NCBI RefSeq assembly: GCF_001282785.1
Contig: NZ_CVUA01000001.1
Span: forward strand, 248,001-312,000
Direction of reading: 5' to 3'
DNA: 64,000 nucleotides
DNA from: Halolamina sediminis
GTDB taxonomy: Archaea; Halobacteriota; Halobacteria; Halobacteriales; Haloferacaceae
This document shows positions 6,131 to 32,650 of the stretch, one piece after another (position 1 is the stretch's first letter; each line of letters begins with the position of its first letter). The notes beneath the pieces were generated by a model, which did no database searches, had not been told where the DNA came from, and saw nothing but the letters and a program-made list of their open reading frames with translations. Position numbers and translations under genes: made by a program.

Positions 6131-6620
6131 CGAAATCACCCGCGAGCCGTCCCGCTTCGGCATCGCCGTCTCGGCCGGGTTCGCGCTGCTGTCGATCACC
6201 GCGACGGCGCTGGTGGTGCCGACCGCCGCCGCGATCTCGGGGCTCGGACTGCTCGTGCTTGTCGCGGGGCTGGGGCGGGCGTCGCGTCGGCTGGTCACCA
6301 ACGGTGGCGGGCTCCTGCTGCTCGGCGTGCTGTACGCCGGCTACACCGGTGCGCCGCCGCTGCCGGTGCTGATCGGCGCGCTGTTCGGCGTGCTCGCGTG
6401 GGACGCCGCCAGCAACGCCGTCTCCGTCGGCGAGCAGCTGGGGAAGGAGACCGACTCGACCCGGGGGGAGGTCGTCCACGTCGTGTCGTCGTTCCTCGTC
6501 GGCAGCCTCGCCGTCGCCGTCGGCTTCGGCGTGTACGTCGCCGCCGCGGGCGGGCAGCCGATCGCGTCGGTGTTCCTGCTGGTCGCCGGCGCGGTCGCGC
6601 TGGTGAACGCGTTACGCTGA
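6126..6620 (+). CDS. DUF7519-like four-helix membrane protein
   Basis: 164 residues, mostly hydrophobic with about five membrane spans and a short charged N-terminus (MTEITREPSRFG). The ATG at 6126 is preferred because it lies in the repeated GAGGTGGTCTCGATGACC context; an upstream in-frame ATG would add seven residues of duplicated sequence. It is the last gene of the DUF4129 operon and resembles the small protein that follows DUF58 in other haloarchaea (DUF7519, from memory). Function unknown; probably a subunit of the same envelope system. Confidence 0.75.
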   Translation: MTEITREPSRFGIAVSAGFALLSITATALVVPTAAAISGLGLLVLVAGLGRASRRLVTNGGGLLLLGVLYAGYTGAPPLPVLIGALFGVLAWDAASNAVSVGEQLGKETDSTRGEVVHVVSSFLVGSLAVAVGFGVYVAAAGGQPIASVFLLVAGAVALVNALR

Positions 6621-6661
6621 ACCGTAACCGATTAACCGCAGCACGTCCGACGGTTAGCTGA

Positions 6662-6746
6662 GCCGAGGTAGCCTAGCCTGGCCAAGGCGGTAGATTCGAA
6701 ATCTACTGTCCTCACGGACTCAGGGGTTCAAATCCCCTCCTCGGCG
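6662..6746 (+). tRNA. tRNA-Ser(CGA)
   Basis: A full 85-nt class II cloverleaf. Acceptor GCCGAGG pairs with CCTCGGC and the discriminator is G. The D-arm contains AGCCTGGCCAAGG. The anticodon stem GTAGA/TCTAC encloses the loop TTCGAAA, so the anticodon is CGA (6697-6699). A long variable arm follows (TGTCCTCACGGACTCA), as required for tRNA-Ser, then the T-loop GGTTCAAATCC. No CCA is encoded and no intron is seen. The following TTTCT is a typical archaeal terminator. Confidence 0.97.
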
Positions 6747-6891
6747 TTTCTGTGGTACAACGTGCTCAGCCCGGAGCGTCGGCTCCGGCCACGGCGCCGT
6801 ACGCAGTCGAAGCCGTCCGAGGGATTTTGAGCCCTGTCTGAAGCTCTGTACCCGCTCCGAGCACCGCCCGTACCTCTCCACGACCTCGCAC

Positions 6892-6944
6892 TTTTGGCCC
6901 GCCTAAACTTCGACGGGCTTTTACACGATTAGGTCGGCCTAATC
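6892..6944 (+). promoter_or_regulatory. Two metalloregulator-like palindromic boxes flanking a TATA box
   Basis: Box 1 (6892-6907) reads TTTTGGCCCGCCTAAA. Box 2 (6927-6944) is the perfect inverted repeat GATTAGG-TCGG-CCTAATC. Both share the TTNGGnCnGCCTAA layout, close to the TTAGG...CCTAA boxes bound by DtxR/IdeR-family iron repressors. The TATA-like CTTTTACA (about 6918-6925) lies between them, 27 bp from the ATG at 6948. A repressor on box 2 would block the start site; one on box 1 would block TFB/TBP. Haloarchaea have DtxR-family iron regulators (Idr1/Idr2, SirR); assignment of this site to one of them is inference. Confidence 0.65.
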
Positions 6945-6947
6945 CGT

Positions 6948-8060
6948 ATGGACGACCGACCGAAGTCGACGCGTCGAGCGTATCTCGCAAGCGGTGCCGT
7001 CGTCGCTAGCGGGCTGCTGGCGGGCTGTGCCGGCGGCGACGGAACCGACACGCCGGCCGGCAACGGCGGCAGCTACACCGTCTCGATGGAGCCGGTGGGG
7101 GAGGTCGAGTTCGACGGCGTCCCCGAGACGTGGGTCGCCAACAACGGAAGCTGGGCTGACATGGGGATCGCGCTGGGCCAAGCGCCGCCGGAGGCGCTGT
7201 GGCTTACCAGCCGCTACCACACCCAGTACTACGACGAGATCGACGGCGTGCGCGTCGACACCGAGGGGATGACCGACCTCTATCAGGACGGGGTGGACAA
7301 GGAGCTGTTCTACGAGCTCGGTGCCGACGTCCACGTCGTCGACCCGAACTTCCTCATGAACCGCTTCAGCGGCTGGGAGCAGGAGGATGTCGACGAGATC
7401 GAGGAGAACGTCGGCCCCTTCTTCGGCAACAGCATCTTCTCGACCGGCTACGGCTGGCACGAGGAGTACCAGTACTACGATCTCTACGAGGCGTTCGAGA
7501 AGCTCGCAGAGGTGTTCCAGGAGACCGACCGCTACGACGCGTTCACGGACCTGCACTCGGAGTTCCAGTCGAACGTCGAAGGGGCCGTCCCCGCCGAGAG
7601 CGAGCGTCGGGAGGCGGCAGTCGTCTGGGCCGCCGGCAACGAGCCCGAGTCGTTCTCGCCGTACATCGTCGGCGAGGGGACGAGCTTCAAGCACCTCCGC
7701 GAGTTGGGCGTACAGGACGCCTTCGCGGACACCGAGGTGCGCGACTTCCACAGCAACCGCAGCGAGGTCGACTACGAGACGCTGCTCGAAGTCGACCCCG
7801 AGGTGTTGCTCTGTCGGGGTCACGAGCACCAGACCGCCGAGGAGTTCCGGAACACCGTCGTCTCGTTCATGGAGAACCACGACGTTGCCAGCGACCTGAC
7901 CGCGGTGAAGAACGGCGACGTCTACCGCGCCGGCCCGCTGTACCAGGGGCCGATCACACATTTCGTCGTCACCCAGCGACTGGCCGAGGACCTCTACGAC
8001 GTCGACGGACAGCTGTACGACGCCGGCCGCGTGAGCGACATCGTCGCCGGCGAGTTCTAG
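6948..8060 (+). CDS. ABC transporter substrate-binding lipoprotein (siderophore/cobalamin type)
   Basis: 370 residues. The N-terminus carries a Tat-type signal (STRRAYLASGAVVASG) with lipobox LAGC, so the protein should be an exported, lipid-anchored binding protein. The mature part has the two-lobed FecB/BtuF pattern, with a long linking helix (LAEVFQETDRYDAFTDLHSE) and a second lobe containing VDYETLLEVDPEVLLCRGH. It probably captures an iron-siderophore or corrinoid. No permease or ATPase gene is adjacent, so it must use components encoded elsewhere. Two iron-box-like palindromes overlap its promoter, which supports a metal-starvation role. Confidence 0.88.
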   Translation: MDDRPKSTRRAYLASGAVVASGLLAGCAGGDGTDTPAGNGGSYTVSMEPVGEVEFDGVPETWVANNGSWADMGIALGQAPPEALWLTSRYHTQYYDEIDGVRVDTEGMTDLYQDGVDKELFYELGADVHVVDPNFLMNRFSGWEQEDVDEIEENVGPFFGNSIFSTGYGWHEEYQYYDLYEAFEKLAEVFQETDRYDAFTDLHSEFQSNVEGAVPAESERREAAVVWAAGNEPESFSPYIVGEGTSFKHLRELGVQDAFADTEVRDFHSNRSEVDYETLLEVDPEVLLCRGHEHQTAEEFRNTVVSFMENHDVASDLTAVKNGDVYRAGPLYQGPITHFVVTQRLAEDLYDVDGQLYDAGRVSDIVAGEF

Positions 8061-14437: not shown

Positions 14438-16375
14438 ATGGTCGGCCGCACGCTCCCGCTGACCGCCTTCGTCGCGGTGTTCGTCGTCGCCGTGGTGGTC
14501 CTGAGTGCCACTCTCGTCGTTCCCGTCGGCGCGGCCGACGACGTCGAGCCCGTACCGTTCGAGGACACGTTCACGCTTGGCCTCACCGACGAGACGGTGC
14601 GCCAGACCGAAGCCCGGGGGTTCTCCATCCCCCGGGTCGAAGTGTACTACTCGGCGTACGAGTACGTGGTCGGCTTCAACAGCGTCGGCGCCTACGTCGC
14701 CGAACAGGAGCGAACCGGCCACGACCGGCGCTTCGGCCAGCCCGTCGCGGCGTTCGTCTCGGACTACGCGGGCGCCAACGCCTCGCTCACCGATGACGGC
14801 TATCTGACTGCCGAGGGCGAGGTCGACTTCGCTCCCGCGCAGGAAACCGTCGTCGTCGTCGACAGCCGCGCTCGCCTGCCCAGCGGTCCCGTCGCCGTGC
14901 CGTTCTCCGATCGCGACGCCGCGGCGGCGTTCGTCGACGCGTACGGCGGGGAGATCGTGCCGTGGAAGGCGGTCCCCGAGCGTGTCACTGCCCGCGACCC
15001 GGCGTCCGAATCGGCGCTCCGTGACGCGGTCGAGAACCGCTCGGCGTGGGCGAACGACGCCGTCGCCGCGGCGACCGACCGCGAGCGGCCGACGTCGATC
15101 GTCGTCGGCGAGGACGCCGACAGCCTCGAAGCGGCCGTCGCGGCCGCCCCGCCGAACACGACCGTCGAACTCCCGCCGGGCACCTACCGCACGGACGGCC
15201 TGCTCGTGAACAAGTCGCTGACGATCGCCGGCGCCGGGAACGCGACGACGATCCGTGGCGACGGCAACGGTACCGTGCTCACGATCGCGGCGCCCCGGAC
15301 CACCCTCCGGGCGCTCCGAATCGACGGCGTCGGCGACGTGGGGAGCCGCCGGAGCACGCTCAACGAAACAGAGATCGAGGGGCTCAACTGGTCGAAGAAC
15401 GTCGAACTCGCCTACGGCCGGGGCGACGCCGCGATCCGACTGGTCGACGCCGAGCGCTCGCTCGTCGAGGGCGTCTCGATCGAGACGCCGGCCTCGGGCA
15501 TCGTCACGCTCGACAGTCGGGGCGCCGTGGTCCGCGAGTCGACGGTCTCGATCGCCGGCGGCACCCAGGAGGGGTTCATGGGGCTGGTCGCGATGTACGA
15601 GCCGATCGTCGTCGAACGGAGCCGTTTCACCGGCGGCCGCGACGGCGTCTACACCCACCGTGCCGACGGGATCGTCGTCCGGGACAGCGCCTTCGCCGAC
15701 AGCCGCTTCGGGATCCACGAGATGTACACCTCCGACTCGCTGCTGCGGAACAACACCGCCCGCGACACGAACGCGGGCATCTTCATGATGACCCGCCCCT
15801 CCGGCAACCTCCTCGTCGGCAACGACGTGCGTGACTCCCGGGTCGGCATCTCCACCGCGGGCTCGCGGTCGTACTTCGCGTCGAACGTCGTCGCCGACAA
15901 CGGACGGGGGTTCAACGTCTACAGCTCGCAGTCGCTGTACGTCCACAACACGGTCGTCGGGAACGACGTTGGGCTCCGGGCCGGCGACGCGCTCGCGACC
16001 AACCTCCTCACCGCCAACGACGTCGTCGGGAACGAACGGGCAGCGACGGCCAGCCTCGGCCCGCTACGGGTGTGGACCGTCGGCGATCGCGGTAACTACT
16101 GGGGGCCGATCCCGGGCACCGACACCGACGCCGACGGCCACTACGAACGCGGGTTCCGGCCGACCGGCTCGGTCGACGCGCGCGTCCAGTCGACGCCCGG
16201 CGCGTGGACGCTCGCGCGCTCGCCGGCGGTCGACCTCGTCCGGACGGTCCAAGAGACCGTCCCGGGGTTGCGCGCGACCGGCGTCGTCGACGTGGCGCCG
16301 CGGACGACCCCCGTCCGCCCCGAGCGGCTCGCGGCGCTGCGCGAGTCGCGGAACGCGACGGAGGTGGCCGGATGA
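14438..16375 (+). CDS. nosD: Nitrous oxide reductase maturation protein NosD
   Basis: 645 residues. An N-terminal hydrophobic signal (residues 8-30) is followed by a NosL-related/leader region up to about residue 220. A right-handed parallel beta-helix then runs to about residue 560, with repeated Asn/Asp turns (VGNDVRDSRVGISTAGS, NVVADNGRGFNVYSSQS). NosD is the surface component of the NosDFY machine that supplies sulfur/copper-site maturation to N2O reductase outside the membrane. It is longer than the usual bacterial NosD (about 440 residues) because of the N-terminal extension. Its stop overlaps the nosF start (ATGA). Confidence 0.93.
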   Translation: MVGRTLPLTAFVAVFVVAVVVLSATLVVPVGAADDVEPVPFEDTFTLGLTDETVRQTEARGFSIPRVEVYYSAYEYVVGFNSVGAYVAEQERTGHDRRFGQPVAAFVSDYAGANASLTDDGYLTAEGEVDFAPAQETVVVVDSRARLPSGPVAVPFSDRDAAAAFVDAYGGEIVPWKAVPERVTARDPASESALRDAVENRSAWANDAVAAATDRERPTSIVVGEDADSLEAAVAAAPPNTTVELPPGTYRTDGLLVNKSLTIAGAGNATTIRGDGNGTVLTIAAPRTTLRALRIDGVGDVGSRRSTLNETEIEGLNWSKNVELAYGRGDAAIRLVDAERSLVEGVSIETPASGIVTLDSRGAVVRESTVSIAGGTQEGFMGLVAMYEPIVVERSRFTGGRDGVYTHRADGIVVRDSAFADSRFGIHEMYTSDSLLRNNTARDTNAGIFMMTRPSGNLLVGNDVRDSRVGISTAGSRSYFASNVVADNGRGFNVYSSQSLYVHNTVVGNDVGLRAGDALATNLLTANDVVGNERAATASLGPLRVWTVGDRGNYWGPIPGTDTDADGHYERGFRPTGSVDARVQSTPGAWTLARSPAVDLVRTVQETVPGLRATGVVDVAPRTTPVRPERLAALRESRNATEVAG

Positions 16376-22515: not shown

Positions 22516-22910
22516 ACCGCGACGGCGAACAGCAACAGCAGCTTGACGCTAGACCACTTGCGACCGCACCGCTCCGCACGGCCCACGAACCTCCCCAGCC
22601 GACTCCCTCCTTCGCTTCGCTCGGCCAGTCGTCCCTCGCGCCTGCTCGTCCACGCAGGGACTCGCGCTTCGCGCCGACAGCGACCGCGGTGCGGTGGCGG
22701 TGGACGCCGCGCGGCGGCACCGGTCGCCGCCGCGCGGGGGAGGGGTGGGGACTCGGCGCTGTGCCGGACCTTGTGTCCGGCACACTGCGGTCACAAGTGG
22801 TCTAGCGTCGAGCTGCTGTCGCCGTCGCGGTTGCTGTTTCAGTTGCCAACGATCGAGATTTCGTCGCCGTCCCGGTCGCTGTCCCACTAGCCAACGATCC
22901 AGATACCGTC
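22516..22910 (+). repeat. TIR element, copy A (non-coding, hairpin-rich)
   Basis: This fills the 530-bp gap between the thiolase and MBL genes. The core terminal inverted repeats are 22545-22568 and 22786-22809 (shared core GACCACTTGYGACCGCA). They extend outward to about 22516 and 22831, for example ACCGCGACGGCGA on the left. The interior holds an 11-bp perfect stem CGCGCGGCGGC/GCCGCCGCGCG near 22708-22737 and a terminal hairpin GTGCCGGAC/GTCCGGCAC (22761-22783). Beyond the right repeat, 22832-22910 carries degenerate tandem units with CCAACGATC. No open frame with haloarchaeal composition is present. Copies B and C share the layout. See findings for interpretation. Confidence 0.85.
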
Positions 22911-22988: not shown

Positions 22989-23900
22989 ATGGCCATCGGC
23001 GACGTTCAGGCAGTCGCGGGCACCGAGAACGTCCACTACGTCGACACCGGGATGTACGACACGCCCCAGTACGGCTCCGTCTACGTCATCGACGGCGAAC
23101 GAACCGCCGTCGTCGACTCCGGCACGGGCGGCGACTACGAACAGATCGCCGGCGCACTCGACGAACTCGGCATCGACGCGCTGGACGCGGTGGTGCTCAC
23201 CCACGTCCACCTCGACCACGCCGGGGGCGCCGGGCATCTGCTCGAAGACTACCCCGACGCGCAGGCGTACGTCCACGAGCGCGGTGCGCGGCACCTGATC
23301 GACCCCGAGCGCCTCGTCGCCGGCACGAAGGACGCGGTCGGCGACCAGTGGCAGTACTACGCCGAACCCGAGCCGATCCCGGACGAACGAGTCACCCGCC
23401 TCGCGGACGGCGACGCGGTGGATCTCGGCGACCGAACGCTCACCGCCCACGAGGCGCCGGGGCACGCCCCCCACCAGCACGTGTTCCACGACGCCGACGC
23501 GGGGATCGTCTTCACCGGCGACGCCGCGGGGATCTACGTCCCCGAGGTGGACACGATCCGGGAGACCAGCCCGCCGCCGCAGTTCGACCTGGATCAGGCC
23601 CGCCGGGACGTGTCGACCATCGCGGACCTGGAGCCGGAGATCCTGGCGTTCTCGCACTTCGGCCCGCGGGCGTTCGACGAGGAGCAGCTGCAGGGGTACA
23701 AGCGCACGCTGATGGAGTGGGTCGAGGCTGTGAGACGGAAGCGGGCCGAGTTGGCGGACGAGGAGGCGGTGATCGAGCACTTCGTTGGGCATGCGGACGA
23801 GATGGCTGGCGCCGAGGTGTGGGGCCAGCGGAAGGCCGAGGCGGAGATGCGGCTTAATACACGGGGCGTGTTGGCGTATCTGAGGGAGCAAACGGAGTAA
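22989..23900 (+). CDS. MBL-fold metallo-hydrolase
   Basis: 303 residues. The metallo-beta-lactamase motifs are clear: HVHLDHAGG (about residue 77, HxHxDH), APGHAPHQHVFH (third His), FTGDAAG (bridging Asp) and FSHFGPR (last His). It is a soluble dinuclear zinc hydrolase of the glyoxalase-II-like or flavodiiron-like subgroup; the substrate is unknown. The C-terminal helical region of about 70 residues is typical of haloarchaeal members. The start ATG is preceded by CGTTTTCTCCCG about 30 bp upstream. It lies just downstream of element A. Confidence 0.9.
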   Translation: MAIGDVQAVAGTENVHYVDTGMYDTPQYGSVYVIDGERTAVVDSGTGGDYEQIAGALDELGIDALDAVVLTHVHLDHAGGAGHLLEDYPDAQAYVHERGARHLIDPERLVAGTKDAVGDQWQYYAEPEPIPDERVTRLADGDAVDLGDRTLTAHEAPGHAPHQHVFHDADAGIVFTGDAAGIYVPEVDTIRETSPPPQFDLDQARRDVSTIADLEPEILAFSHFGPRAFDEEQLQGYKRTLMEWVEAVRRKRAELADEEAVIEHFVGHADEMAGAEVWGQRKAEAEMRLNTRGVLAYLREQTE

Positions 23901-24066: not shown

Positions 24067-24690
24067 TCACGGAGCGTTCTGAACGTCGAACCCACCGGGG
24101 TTCGGAACGTCCGACTTGTTCGCAGCCGCGTGAATCTTCAGGTTGCCACCGATATCGCTGTCCGTTGCTACGCCGGACGAATTCACTTCGAACCCGACTT
24201 TCTTCTTCTCTCCCACGAAGTAGTGGAAGGCCATGCCGCGAGGCCCGAGGTGGTACTCCCCTTGATCGGCGCTACCGACCTCGATCGCACGACGGTCTCC
24301 GTCGCCGCCCATTCCTTCTCCGTCCATCACGTAGGGCTTGATACTGCCACCTCCCTCCGTCCAGATCCACACCGGCTGAGTCCCCTGGTTCCTGATCTCG
24401 AACAGGTTGTCGAACAGGAACTCGCCGTCTTCGTTGACACCATCGCCGCCGACTGCCGTATCCGCGAAACTAACGGATAACCCGCCTCCAGAGGATCCGT
24501 CTTGATCCACAAAAACATCGTTCGGCCCTTCAAGAGCTTCGATCCCTACGTATGCTGATTCGTCACCAGAAGCAACGTTAACTGCAACGTCACGTTCTGC
24601 AGTTGCACTAGTGAACGCGCCCGTGCTAATGCCCGCCGCACCGGCGGCAGTGAGCGATCCCAGACCAGCGATGAACTTGCGTCGTTCCAT
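24067..24690 (-). CDS. Secreted SipW/DUF1102-like protein, paralogue 1
   Basis: 207 residues. The N-terminus MERRKFIAGLGSLTAAGAAG then ISTGAFTS is a long twin-Arg, Ala/Gly-rich signal ending in a GAFTS motif, as in SipW-dependent (TasA/camelysin-like) and archaeal DUF1102 proteins. The mature part begins AERDVAVNVASGDESAYVGIE and is beta-rich, with the family phrase LFEIRNQGTQPVWIW. It ends with an Asn/Gly-rich segment. It is likely exported and possibly assembled on the surface. It is first of four tandem minus-strand paralogues. Its leader shares sequence with those of paralogues 2 and 4. The exact polymer or adhesin role is inference. Confidence 0.75.
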   Translation of the reverse strand: MERRKFIAGLGSLTAAGAAGISTGAFTSATAERDVAVNVASGDESAYVGIEALEGPNDVFVDQDGSSGGGLSVSFADTAVGGDGVNEDGEFLFDNLFEIRNQGTQPVWIWTEGGGSIKPYVMDGEGMGGDGDRRAIEVGSADQGEYHLGPRGMAFHYFVGEKKKVGFEVNSSGVATDSDIGGNLKIHAAANKSDVPNPGGFDVQNAP

Positions 24691-24790
24691 TGTGGTTTGA
24701 CCTCGTTCGCGCCCCGAGCTGCCCCGGGAACGCTTCGTTCACCACATACCCCCGTTGGTAAGTAGTATTGAGTTCGCTGACGGAAATCAG
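24691..24790 (-). promoter_or_regulatory. Conserved promoter and leader of paralogue 1
   Basis: Read on the minus strand: GTCAGCGAACTCAATACTAC, then TTACCAACGGGGGTATGTGG, then AACGAAGCGTTCCCGG...CTCGGGGCGCGAACGAGG, then AACCACAATG. The blocks CAATACTAC, GGGGTATGTGG and GCGTTCCCGG...CGGGGCG recur before paralogue 4, and in part before paralogue 2. The CCCGG/CCGGG arms can pair. This predicts a leadered mRNA with a 5' hairpin, unusual in haloarchaea. The rest of the 376-bp gap to 25067 is AT-richer and shows no gene. Confidence 0.5.
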
Positions 24791-25640: not shown

Positions 25641-25872
25641 TGTGGTTCGTGCCTCGTTAACGCCCCGATCCGCACCGGAACGTTTCCTCTGTTCGAGGCC
25701 ACTACGGGGAGGTAGTATTGCGTCCGTTGACTCCGTTCAGCGTCAGTCTGTCGTTCGTTCCGTGCTGTATGGCTCCCCCTGAGACGTCTCGTACCGGATC
25801 GATCGAACCCGTCAGACTCTGGTCGTTACGAGATTTCGGCGTATCCCGTCGGCATACAGAACGAGGCGCGAA

Positions 25873-26556: not shown

Positions 26557-26580
26557 GATGGCTACGGTATCGTAGCCATC
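26557..26580. terminator. Perfect 10-bp hairpin between paralogues 4 and 3
   Basis: GATGGCTACG-GTAT-CGTAGCCATC is a perfect inverted repeat in the 50-bp gap between the paralogue 4 stop (26592) and the paralogue 3 start (26541), both on the minus strand. It could terminate paralogue 4 transcripts, act as an mRNA stabiliser/processing site, or be a regulator site for paralogue 3. Confidence 0.5.
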
Positions 26581-26591
26581 AGTAAACTCAT

Positions 26592-27260
26592 CTACGAGCT
26601 TTCGGCCTGGTCTTCAGTGTAAGCAAATATCTTAATTGAACCACTCATATCGGCGTTATAGTCGGAGCCAGGAGGAACGGTAAGCCAGAACCCAACACTA
26701 ACGGTGGTTCCGGGCGGAAGAGCAACTTCCCAGCTACCGTTCACTGTGCCCTGATTTGAAGGTGACCACGTAACGTCGTCGAAGTTTTCGTCTGCACTGT
26801 CCAGATCCGATCGATAGAACCCATAGTTTGCGCCTCGTCCTCCACCAGGGTTGAGTCCAGATGGAGAGACATTCAACAGGTCAGCGAGCTCGTCATGGAA
26901 TGTTGGCTCCGAACTACCTGCGCCGGGCGCGTTTGGCTTCCCAGTATTAAACCAAACCGCCACTGTTTCAGATCCGTTGTTAGTGATCGTGAATAGGTCG
27001 TTGAAGTTGGTGTTCGCATCCGGATTCAGGCCACCATCACCGTCCCCATCCGACGTAAAGTCCAGAGTTAGTGCCCCATCCCCGTCGAAGGATGCGTATT
27101 CGCTAGTCGGTTGGAGGCCAAGATAGGCATTCCCGTCACCCGACACTTCAAGAGAAACGTCACGACTCGCCCGGACACCTGTGAACGCGCCCGTACCAAT
27201 GCCCGCCGCACCAGCGGCGGTAAGCGATCCCAGACCAGCGATGAACTTCCGTCGATCCAT
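26592..27260 (-). CDS. Secreted SipW/DUF1102-like protein, paralogue 4
   Basis: 222 residues. The signal MDRRKFIAGLGSLTAAGAAG then IGTGAFTGV matches paralogues 1 and 2 almost exactly. The mature region has ASRDVSLEVSGDGNAYLGLQ and LFTITNNGSETVAVWF, then a Gly/Asn/Ser-rich middle and a beta-rich end (GSIKIFAYTEDQAESS). Base composition is AT-richer than the chromosome average in this window. It is the promoter-proximal member if the four are transcribed together, since it lies furthest upstream on the minus strand. Likely exported and possibly a fibre or surface-layer-associated protein. Confidence 0.75.
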   Translation of the reverse strand: MDRRKFIAGLGSLTAAGAAGIGTGAFTGVRASRDVSLEVSGDGNAYLGLQPTSEYASFDGDGALTLDFTSDGDGDGGLNPDANTNFNDLFTITNNGSETVAVWFNTGKPNAPGAGSSEPTFHDELADLLNVSPSGLNPGGGRGANYGFYRSDLDSADENFDDVTWSPSNQGTVNGSWEVALPPGTTVSVGFWLTVPPGSDYNADMSGSIKIFAYTEDQAESS

Positions 27261-27634
27261 TGTCGTAGTACCTCGTCACGCCCCCGGTCTTCCGGGAACG
27301 CTTCATTCCCCACATACCCCCCTTTGTAAGTAGTATTGATTCATCTGACACGATTCAGGCCGAACTAGTTGGATATACAAGATGTATCAGCCCCCGTTTG
27401 AGAACGACTCCCGGACCCACAGACCCGGTCTGAGTGCGCCGTAATCGACTCTTGATGCGGCCGCCGAAACCGGTTCCGTCGGTCGTTTTCGCCGATATGC
27501 CGCCGAGCGAGAAACAACGCCGAGAAACGGAACTCGCGTGGCCGAAACCGCCGTCGACGCCCCGCGAATCAACCCCGAGCAACACCCCCGTCGTGTACGG
27601 AGCTTTATGGTCGCTCCCCGCTCACCCGCACCTT
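27261..27634. promoter_or_regulatory. Divergent intergenic region: paralogue 4 leader and acyl-CoA ligase promoter
   Basis: On the minus strand, 27261-27360 holds the same promoter/leader as paralogue 1 (AATACTACTTAC, GGGGTATGTGGGG, CCCGG-AAGA-CCGGGGG hairpin). On the plus strand, CTTTATGG (27603-27610) is a TATA box about 29 bp from ATG 27635. The 27361-27600 stretch has no convincing gene. Confidence 0.5.
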
Positions 27635-29617
27635 ATGGACATTCGCGACGCCGAACAGGGGTTCGACCACCCCGTCATCGACGACGACACGCTGCCGGCG
27701 ATGTTCGAGGCCAGCGCCGAGCGCAACGCCGGGGAGGTGGCCCAGCGCTACAAAGGGGGGATCTACGACCGCTCGCTGGTCGCCGAGGGCGCGATCTCCG
27801 AGGCGCCCGCGGGCGACTACGCCGAACTACGCTACGAGGAGACACGCGAGATCGTCCGCCACCTCGCGACCGGCTTCCGTGAGCTCGGGATCGAGGCCGG
27901 CGATCGTGTAGGGCTGTTCGCCAACACCCGGATGGAGTGGGCCCAGAGCGACTTCGGCGTGCTCGCCGCCGGCGGCGTGGTCAACACCGTCTACAGCGGC
28001 TCCTCGGAGCGCCAGACCGAGTACCTGCTGGGCGACGCCGGCTCGGAGGGCGTGGTCGTCGAGAACGGCGACCTGCTGCACAAGGTGCTGAACGTCGAGG
28101 ACGAGCTGGACCTCTCGTTTATCGTCGTGATGGACGAGCCCGCCGACGGCAGCGGCGCTGCGGCGGCGGTGCGGGACCGCGACGACGTGCTCACGCTGGG
28201 GCAGCTCCACGAGCGCGGCGCCGACGCGTTCGACGAGGACGCCTACGAGGGCTGGCTCGACGAGCGCGACGGCGACGATCTCGCGAGCCTCGTCTACACC
28301 TCCGGCACGACCGGCCAGCCGAAGGGCGTCGAGCTCACCCACTGGAACTTCCGGTCGAACGTGAACCAGTGTTTCCGGCGGTTCGGCCCGCGCCCGGACC
28401 GCGATCCCGACATGCCGACGACCGACACCGACACGATGGCGCTCTCGTTCCTGCCGTTGGCCCACGTGTTCGAGCGCCTCTCCGGTCACTTCCTGATGTT
28501 CGCGGCCGGGGCGACCATCGCCTACGCCGAGAGCCCGGACACCCTCCGGGAGGACTTCAAACTCGTTGAGCCGACGACGTTCACTAGCGTCCCGCGCGTG
28601 TACGAGAAGCTGTACGCCGCCGTGCGGGAGCAGGCCAGCGAGTCGCCGATCAAGCAGCGCATCTTCGAGTGGGCCGTCGACGTGGCCCGCGAGTACGAGC
28701 GGGCCGAGAACCCCGGCACGCTGCTCTCGCTGAAACACGACATCGGCGACAAGCTGGTCTACTCCAGTGTCCGCGAGGCGCTGGGGGACAACGTCGACTT
28801 CTTCGTCTCCGGCGGCGGCAGCCTCTCGGAGGACCTCTGTCGGCTGTTCCACGGGATGGGGATCCCGATCCTCGAGGGGTACGGGCTCACGGAGACCGCG
28901 CCCGTGCTCAGCGTCAACCCCATCGAGGACCCCAACCCCGGCACGATCGGCCCGCCGGTCGTCGACGTGGAGACGAAACTCGATACGTCCATCGGCGTGA
29001 TGGGCGACGACATCGCGGGTGACACCGGCGAACTGCTCGTCCGCGGGCCGAACGTCACCGACGGCTACTGGGAGAAGCCCGAGGCCACCGACGAGGCGTT
29101 CGTCGAGGCTGATGAGGCCGACGACGGTGGTGAGCCGTGGTTCCGGACCGGCGACGTCGTCGAAATCCGCCCCGACGGCTACATCGCGTTCCGCGAGCGA
29201 GCCAAACAGCTGCTGAAGCTGTCGACGGGGAAGATGGTGCCGCCGGGCCCCATCGAGGACGCGTTCGCCGACAACGAGCTGATCGAGCAGGCGATGGTCG
29301 TCGGCGACGCCCGGAAGTTCGTCGGCGCGCTGATCGTCCCCGCGTTCGACGCCGTTCGATCGTGGGGCGAGCGCGAAGGGCTGGACCTCCCCGCAGACGA
29401 CGCCGAGCTCTGCCACGACGACCGCGTCCGCGACCGGATCCAGCAGGAGGTAGCGACCATCAACGACGGGTTCGAGAGCCACGAGCAGATCAAGCAGTTC
29501 CGGCTGGTGCCCGAGGAGTTCACCCCCGAGAACGACCTGCTGACGCCGACGATGAAGAAGAAACGGCGGAAGATTCTCGATCGCTGGAGCGACGAGGTCG
29601 AAGACCTCTACGAGTAA
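27635..29617 (+). CDS. Long-chain acyl-CoA synthetase (AMP-forming)
   Basis: 660 residues, usual for long-chain acyl-CoA ligases. The P-loop YTSGTTGQPKGVELTH (about residue 222) and the adenylate motif GYGLTETAPVLSVNP are intact, as are RTGDVVEI and the hinge/C-terminal lysine region near the end. It should activate fatty acids to acyl-CoA via an acyl-AMP, in the cytoplasm. ATG 27635 is chosen for the TATA box 29 bp upstream (leaderless). The plus-strand thiolase 5 kb upstream could use its products, but they are separate transcription units. Confidence 0.93.
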   Translation: MDIRDAEQGFDHPVIDDDTLPAMFEASAERNAGEVAQRYKGGIYDRSLVAEGAISEAPAGDYAELRYEETREIVRHLATGFRELGIEAGDRVGLFANTRMEWAQSDFGVLAAGGVVNTVYSGSSERQTEYLLGDAGSEGVVVENGDLLHKVLNVEDELDLSFIVVMDEPADGSGAAAAVRDRDDVLTLGQLHERGADAFDEDAYEGWLDERDGDDLASLVYTSGTTGQPKGVELTHWNFRSNVNQCFRRFGPRPDRDPDMPTTDTDTMALSFLPLAHVFERLSGHFLMFAAGATIAYAESPDTLREDFKLVEPTTFTSVPRVYEKLYAAVREQASESPIKQRIFEWAVDVAREYERAENPGTLLSLKHDIGDKLVYSSVREALGDNVDFFVSGGGSLSEDLCRLFHGMGIPILEGYGLTETAPVLSVNPIEDPNPGTIGPPVVDVETKLDTSIGVMGDDIAGDTGELLVRGPNVTDGYWEKPEATDEAFVEADEADDGGEPWFRTGDVVEIRPDGYIAFRERAKQLLKLSTGKMVPPGPIEDAFADNELIEQAMVVGDARKFVGALIVPAFDAVRSWGEREGLDLPADDAELCHDDRVRDRIQQEVATINDGFESHEQIKQFRLVPEEFTPENDLLTPTMKKKRRKILDRWSDEVEDLYE

Positions 29618-32183: not shown

Positions 32184-32650
32184 ACAGCAACAGCGCCTCG
32201 ACCGTCGACCACTTGCGACCGCACCGCCCTCTCCCCTCCCCAGCCGACTCCTTCCCTGGCTTCGCTCGGTCACTCGTCCTCCGAGGGAGCGGAGCTCCCT
32301 CGTGCCCTCGTTCGGTTCACTCACGAGGACCTCGCGCGCTCGTTCGCCCACGGAGGCGTCGTGCGGGCGACCCACGCGTCGCCCGCACTGCCCGGGACCG
32401 CCGGTCCCGCCCTGCTCACGTCGCGCGCCGACCGCCTCAGCGGTGCGGTGGCGGTGGACGCCTCGCGGCCGTCGACGAGAGCGAAGCTCTCGTCTGCCAA
32501 TCAGAAATCTCCGATCTCTGATGACGGCGATCGTCGCCGGCCGCGGGGGGAGGGGTGGGGACTCGGCGCTGTGCCGGGCTTCATGCCCGGCGCACTGCCG
32601 TCACAAGTGGTCTAGCACCGAGATGCTGTTGCGGTTGCCGTTGCCGATGG
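32184..32650 (+). repeat. TIR element, copy B (non-coding, hairpin-rich)
   Basis: This occupies most of the 609-bp gap between the lipoprotein gene and serS. The terminal inverted repeats are about 32185-32223 and 32596-32640 (core GACCACTTGYGAC). Interior hairpins are GACGAGAGC-GAA-GCTCTCGTC (32474-32494, perfect), TCAGAAATC/GATCTCTGA (32501-32521, one mismatch) and GTGCCGGGC/GCCCGGCGC (32571-32593). The blocks GCGGTGCGGTGGCGGTGGAC and GGGTGGGGACTCGGCGCTGT match copy A. It is the longest copy, with an extra segment at about 32280-32430 containing GGGAGC-GGA-GCTCCC. No credible gene is present. Confidence 0.85.

Follow-up and report, generated by a model that had tools for sequence, protein, structure and literature searches.

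A shared front of putative promoter, leader, and signal peptide precedes divergent putative Tat-fimbria subunits in a Halolamina sediminis gene island

The 64-kb stretch of Halolamina sediminis DNA analyzed here (the window) contains a tandem of four minus-strand genes, P1 (24067–24690, 207 aa), P2 (25068–25640, 190 aa), P3 (25873–26541, 222 aa), and P4 (26592–27260, 222 aa), bracketed by two conserved plus-strand genes, which encode an MBL-fold protein (22989–23900; 87–89% aa identity in 4/4 related clusters) and an AMP-ligase (27635–29617; ~91% aa identity in related clusters). An equivalent island lies between matching flanks in four other genomes (G002, G004, G005, and G006), and for comparison of these five species we refer to the first gene after the ligase, P4 in the host, as slot A and to the gene nearest the MBL flank, here P1, as slot Z. 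The GC content of the island is 59.2%, compared to 68.8% for the window, and GC3 of the mature regions is 52–86 in the island (52 for P4) compared to 89–94 for four neighboring genes. P3 starts 50 nt past the P4 stop codon, lacks the promoter motif described below, and is probably in an operon behind P4. The P4–P3 gap contains a perfect 10-bp hairpin (26557–26580, minus strand; z −7.35 for a 53-nt stretch, equaled by 0/200 shuffles). The G006 ortholog of P3 (L055 ~6490–7173, minus strand) carries a frameshift in its signal region, which is either real or an assembly error.

Judged by sequence and predicted fold, P1–P4 belong to the pilin family of haloarchaeal Tat-fimbriae (Tafi), which were recently described (iScience 2025, 28:111793, as covered in PMC12687288), and are predicted to be fimbrial subunits. 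A profile of 32 relatives matches the solved Natrinema Tafi pilin (9p0a_C) with an E value of 2.6e-31, and P2 alone matches 9p0a at 1.9e-11, the signal peptide being included in both cases; mature P1 alone and mature P4 alone find only chance-level sequence matches in the PDB. All four proteins match the NCBI TafE model below its cut-off (46.8–63.4 of 155 bits; E 2.6e-12 for P1), and TafA scores are at most 37.2 of 190 bits. P1–P4 differ from the modeled Tafi proteins in that none reaches the curated NCBIfam equivalog cut-offs for TafE, TafA, or TafC. With the signal peptide removed, P2, P3, and P4 retain weak TafE matches (E 1e-5 to 2e-3) and P1 has none. P2 also exceeds the Pfam cut-off for DUF1102 (PF06510; 25.4 vs 22.2 bits), a domain whose function is not known. 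The scores of P3 and P4 do not reach this cut-off, and P1 has no DUF1102 match.

The predicted structures of P1 and P2 are all-beta and, as models, have a fimbrial beta-sandwich fold. For P2 (pLDDT 71.8), the best match of the fold search is 9p0a (Z 8.4), which it lists as the Tafi pilus of Natrinema sp. J7-2, and 7ueg is found at Z 8.7; for P1 (pLDDT 69.2), 7ueg, the Pyrobaculum bundling pilus, ranks first and 9p0a seventh. The beta-sandwich of the models resembles those of the archaeal bundling pili (7ueg) and the Sulfolobus 0406 filament (7pnb), at Z 8.7 and 7.6, but these come from other organisms and share only 9–12% sequence identity. A Z of ~8 is modest by itself, and since MSP/PapD-like domains score near the fimbrial rows for the P2 model (Z 6–7.5, VIA-align), the fold match alone is weak evidence.

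The initial annotation had proposed that P1, P2, and P4 share nearly the same DNA from the signal peptide back through the leader to the promoter, in front of very different mature regions. In a self-comparison of the DNA, P1 and P4 are 85.7% identical over 161 nt (24611–24771 vs 27181–27339; E 2e-47), P1 and P2 84.6% over 130 nt (E 7e-35), and P2 and P4 82.5% over 114 nt (E 3e-26), which is far above chance. On the coding side the match breaks off at 24608–24611 (codon 27 of P1), where the signal peptide ends; from there it extends upstream into the leader and then stops. Identity of the mature proteins, counted over all columns, is 28% for P1/P2 and 23% for both P1/P4 and P2/P4. The sequence GTAGTATT (AATACTAC reversed) has exactly three sites in the window, all on the minus strand (24762, 25712, and 27330), one each 5' of P1, P2, and P4. 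A window search for CCGGGAACGC (GCGTTCCCGG reversed) finds it 5' of P1 (24724) and P4 (27292), with one more site at 15234, and P2 has a variant at this position. Based on the 82–86% identity of the fronts, the 23–28% identity of the mature parts, and the three AATACTAC sites, the proposed observation stands. Its reading as a constant unit for expression and export ahead of variable payloads is likewise supported, and the break that follows the signal peptide is sharp. Signal-peptide DNA is 83–89% identical between the three paralogs, the P2 leader taken in full is only 58–64% like the other two, and the suggested surface antigens are better named Tafi subunits.

The common block consists of the promoter motif CTGA-N6-TCAG-N6-CAATACTAC, a 5' leader with a hairpin, and an RR signal peptide. 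All its copies are on the minus strand: the operator-like CTGA-N6-TCAG with CAATACTAC is found at 24762–24790 (P1), 25712–25740 (P2, with one mismatch), and 27330–27358 (P4), and the leaders, from the core motif to the ATG, at 24691–24761, 25641–25711, and 27261–27329, respectively. Each leader folds into a hairpin 5' of a GAGG motif (GAGGT in P1). For P1 (~24709–24733) a 59-nt stretch has a z of −2.2 and 6/200 shuffles fold equally well, for P2 (~25659–25684) z is −2.7, and for P4 (~27278–27301) z is −3.65 with 0/200 shuffles. Covariation gives weak support for the leader hairpin, as both-sided changes among eight Halolamina leaders occur in 1/6 hairpin pairs; MAFFT put the hairpins of another family's leaders in the wrong place. 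An Rfam search of the island found nothing relevant, returning two sub-threshold chance matches. The signal peptide occupies the first 28 codons of P1 (24607–24690, minus strand; RRKFIAGLGS...) and is common to P2 and P4, with RRKF followed by a hydrophobic stretch, and TAT models match it below threshold. RR is the consensus of the twin-arginine (Tat) signal, and P1, P2, and P4 are predicted to be exported by this route.

The motif CTGA-N6-TCAG-N6-CAATACTAC was read off P1, P2, and P4 and then searched in 392 genomes of the order, where it has 13 sites in 7/392 genomes, the reversed control having none. Every site was read, and the downstream gene is Taf or TafF-like in 13/13 cases (that of L086 being assigned through TafF homology). 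Within the genus, a search allowing one mismatch found 15 sites in 5/7 genomes, 15/15 of them before Taf or TafF-like genes; the two genomes lacking a site have two Taf matches and none, respectively. Four genomes of another family have the motif form of the front before Taf genes. The element is a putative promoter; literature searches of open-access papers listed none on Taf promoters or on a mosaic such as that described below.

Apart from the P1–P4 island, the host genome contains a core Taf locus, which comprises genes for export and assembly, and its operon opens with a site of the same motif (C1:1338928–1338956). This operon (L049) encodes a TafF-like membrane protein (scoring below cut-off), a rhomboid-like protein, an archaeal signal peptidase (above cut-off), and a DUF5305 protein, and across from it lie a divergent DUF7344 gene and a TafC-like gene. 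The TafC-like protein (L049:4250–4942, minus strand), whose gene adjoins the DUF7344 gene, has a long acidic (GEEDDE)n tail. There are four copies of the DUF7344 winged helix-turn-helix (wHTH) protein in the genome (G000:C1:409325, 411961, 1338214, and 2754022): one at the core Taf operon, one near another Taf pair at ~2.753 Mb, and two, at 409–412 kb, near RR-signal proteins that by eye are TasA-like. These proteins are candidate fimbria regulators that may bind the inverted repeat; no paper listed by a search of the open-access literature contained DUF7344. If this assignment is correct, a specific operator and, in DUF7344, a candidate for its regulator would be at hand for the recently described Tat-fimbriae.

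P1–P4 resemble Tafi (TafA/C/E/F models; 9p0a from Natrinema sp. J7-2) in having the same RR signal pattern with homologous sequence and fold, and TafC-like, TafF-like, and signal-peptidase genes lie at a distinct Taf locus of the host genome. Unlike known Tafi, their genes make up a satellite island in which several subunits have apparently exchanged mature parts and a common operator-like element. The closest known parallel is in a different pilus type, the surface-filament subunits PilA1–PilA6 of Haloferax volcanii, which are almost the same in their N-terminal signal segment and differ in the remainder. Their H-domain is, as that report describes it, still part of the pilin after maturation and forms the packed core of the filament (PMC4371748). 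In both cases a conserved N-terminal segment precedes a divergent remainder; however, what is conserved in P1, P2, and P4 is an RR signal peptide that lies ahead of the mature protein, and the conservation extends to the DNA of leader and promoter.

For its own reading, the initial annotation had named uniform divergence from orthologs as the contrary outcome. At the P4 position divergence is far from uniform. Mean DNA identity of the slot-A genes of the five species is 0.74–0.88 upstream (0.67 over the 30 nt next to the ATG) and 0.81–0.91 in the signal peptide, and it falls to 0.58 directly after the signal peptide and to 0.10–0.58 beyond, compared to 0.67–0.91 for the front as a whole. Three other gene pairs of these islands show an exchange of modules. 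G005_11308, with an operator leader, and G002_7278, with a tRNA-like leader (see below) and another signal type, are 75.8% identical in their mature proteins and 0.23–0.43 identical in leader DNA. The coding sequences of G005_8559 and G002_7939 are 0.63–1.00 identical from the ATG to ~+660 and mostly 0.2–0.5 over the rest; their leaders are unrelated (0.27–0.43), and so, for the most part, are their C-terminal passengers. P3 and G005_7616 are 0.67–0.97 identical from +300 to near the stop codon (75.8% over the mature part) and 0.33–0.73 before. As related mature domains stand behind unrelated leaders in other species, we conclude that modules have been exchanged.

The best explanation, which we consider probable, is that a Taf-regulon front is fixed at its slot and that mature domains have been exchanged or replaced between lineages, atop fast divergence. 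Its observed basis is the common block, the distribution of this block, the position-wise phylogeny given below, and the mosaics in other Halolamina pairs. The common front, comprising an operator (the CTGA-N6-TCAG inverted repeat), the invariant core-promoter element CAATACTAC, the hairpin leader, and the RR signal peptide, would switch on the subunits jointly with the core operon for export and assembly, which lies at another place in the genome, and the RR (Tat-type) signal would direct them to one exporter. Purifying selection and a fixed genomic slot across species, and not within-genome homogenization, would keep the front, while the low-GC island between the MBL and ligase genes would hold the mature domains. 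The modules (leader, signal peptide, Taf domain, and C-terminal passenger) would be recombined and replaced between lineages, in addition to fast divergence of exposed residues. Such an island would be a natural case of surface-fiber diversity arising through protein-module exchange behind a fixed promoter and export tag.

It is possible, although we think it rather unlikely, that no exchange is needed and that slots A and Z hold true orthologs, the exposed mature parts of which diverge fast under selection (by phage, partner cells, or surfaces) while the front is constrained. Structural positions do align across all mature parts, and a clade of the slot-A mature domains, worse by 15.9 lnL units, is not rejected (AU p 0.117). 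On the other hand, slot-A mature parts are only 21–31% identical over all columns, no closer to one another than to other paralogs, while P3-type orthologs keep 76%; the flanks of G002 and G004 are 95–100% identical in many 100-nt blocks, while their island proteins reach at most 43%, the best mature match; and exchange is directly seen in the other Halolamina pairs. For the P4 position itself, either exchange or very fast divergence may account for the data. No close donor was found for the mature part of P1 or of P2 in 392 genomes, or for that of P4 in 170 genomes of the family, where matches in other genomes are 29–52% identical and mostly cover the first 80–100 residues; a plasmid search with P4 gave four records with weak matches. 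With the slot-A clade not rejected and no donor in these searches, replacement of the mature parts in P1, P2, and P4 themselves is likely but not proved. An antigenic-variation locus, with one expression site and silent promoterless donor copies of the same gene, does not fit: the promoter motif precedes P1, P2, and P4 alike, and a search of the whole genome gave no additional copy of comparable similarity to P1–P4.

The initial annotation had further suggested that gene conversion maintains the front. Ongoing homogenization of leader and signal peptide within the genome would make P1, P2, and P4 each other's nearest relatives, but they fail to group in the tree of leader plus signal peptide, in which the slot-A genes of the five species form one clade (98/95). 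A same-genome clade of P1, P2, and P4 is rejected (AU p=0.0016), as is one of P1 and P4 (p=0.0049), and the leader nearest to that of P4 is from another species (G006, 87%, compared to 72% for the P1 leader). Since leaders and signal peptides group by position and the same-genome clade is rejected, current gene conversion is not supported and concerted evolution of this kind was discarded as an explanation; we regard it as improbable. In its favor are the 83–89% identity of paralogous signal-peptide DNA, the signal peptide alone, which is too short to decide and does not reject the same-genome clade (p=0.096), and GISTGAF, a stretch that P1 and P2 have in common and that none of the eight remaining sequences of the alignment has, which hints at local duplication or conversion. 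Four-fold sites of the P4 signal peptide agree with those of other species in 11/18 to 15/20 cases, compared to 75–79% for the ligase (nine pairs in intact frame, G002 vs G004 being left out; the G002 ligase carries an indel, and its GC3 was also left out), while 24–27 of 28 signal-peptide residues agree within the slot-A set. As four-fold agreement is about that of the ligase, the signal-peptide DNA is not specially conserved, while its protein sequence is. That P1, P2, and P4 are young copies from a recent tandem duplication, with relaxed mature parts and neither regulon nor exchange, is very improbable: the tandem arrangement and common front would fit, but the same front at matching slots in other Halolamina and the motif form in another family indicate that the set is old, and four-fold sites in the signal peptides differ by 26–42% among the three.

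Other Taf genes of these islands lack the operator and instead have CGGCGGTTCGANTCCGCCGGTGGG, or a variant differing by 1–2 bases, ~17–30 nt 5' of the ATG. The element is preceded by CCCAC and resembles the T-arm and acceptor stem of a tRNA (its 3' part). Examples 5' of Taf/TasA-like export genes are at L051:7575, L055:7200(−), L057:7861(−) and 10461(−), L064:5074(−) and 5773(−), and G000:C1:415622; the genes of the window lack it. The exact 24-mer CGGCGGTTCGANTCCGCCGGTGGG has 80 sites in 44/119 genomes of the family, the reversed control having none. Among the 35 distinct sites in the loci available for reading, 31 have the 5' CCCAC and 31 are followed by an ORF of at least 60 aa starting within 80 nt (some script-picked starts being doubtful); as a raw count, RR or KR occurs in the first 25 residues of 27/31 such ORFs. 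ARAGORN predicts no tRNA at the element, and Rfam found nothing relevant in six loci, five of which contain it. In Haloferax, RNase P and tRNase Z are reported to cleave engineered tRNA-like elements (PMC4946936), and by analogy we guess that these enzymes might also cleave the element described here. If this is true, RNA processing at the tRNA-like leader would be a step in fimbria biogenesis. We tentatively propose, as a speculation held at less than even confidence, that the operator, leader, and signal peptide act as a homology handle that fixes the slot while species exchange fimbrial payloads, so that the fiber surface changes and regulation is kept, and that the tRNA-like front is interchangeable with it, perhaps as a tRNase Z signal setting subunit ratios in polycistronic fimbrial mRNAs.

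Two further features were observed. Some loci encode long proteins with an N-terminal Taf domain and a passenger that is nuclease-like (EcnA) or beta-helix/NosD-like (L047:4147–6999(−), L051:8559–10805, and L057:7939–10416(−)). In the window, an intergenic repeat of ~300–460 nt occurs in two copies that are 83–86% identical (22529–22834 and 32184–32644); its ends appear inverted by eye (GACCACTTG... and ...CAAGTGGTC), and it is perhaps a MITE-like element.
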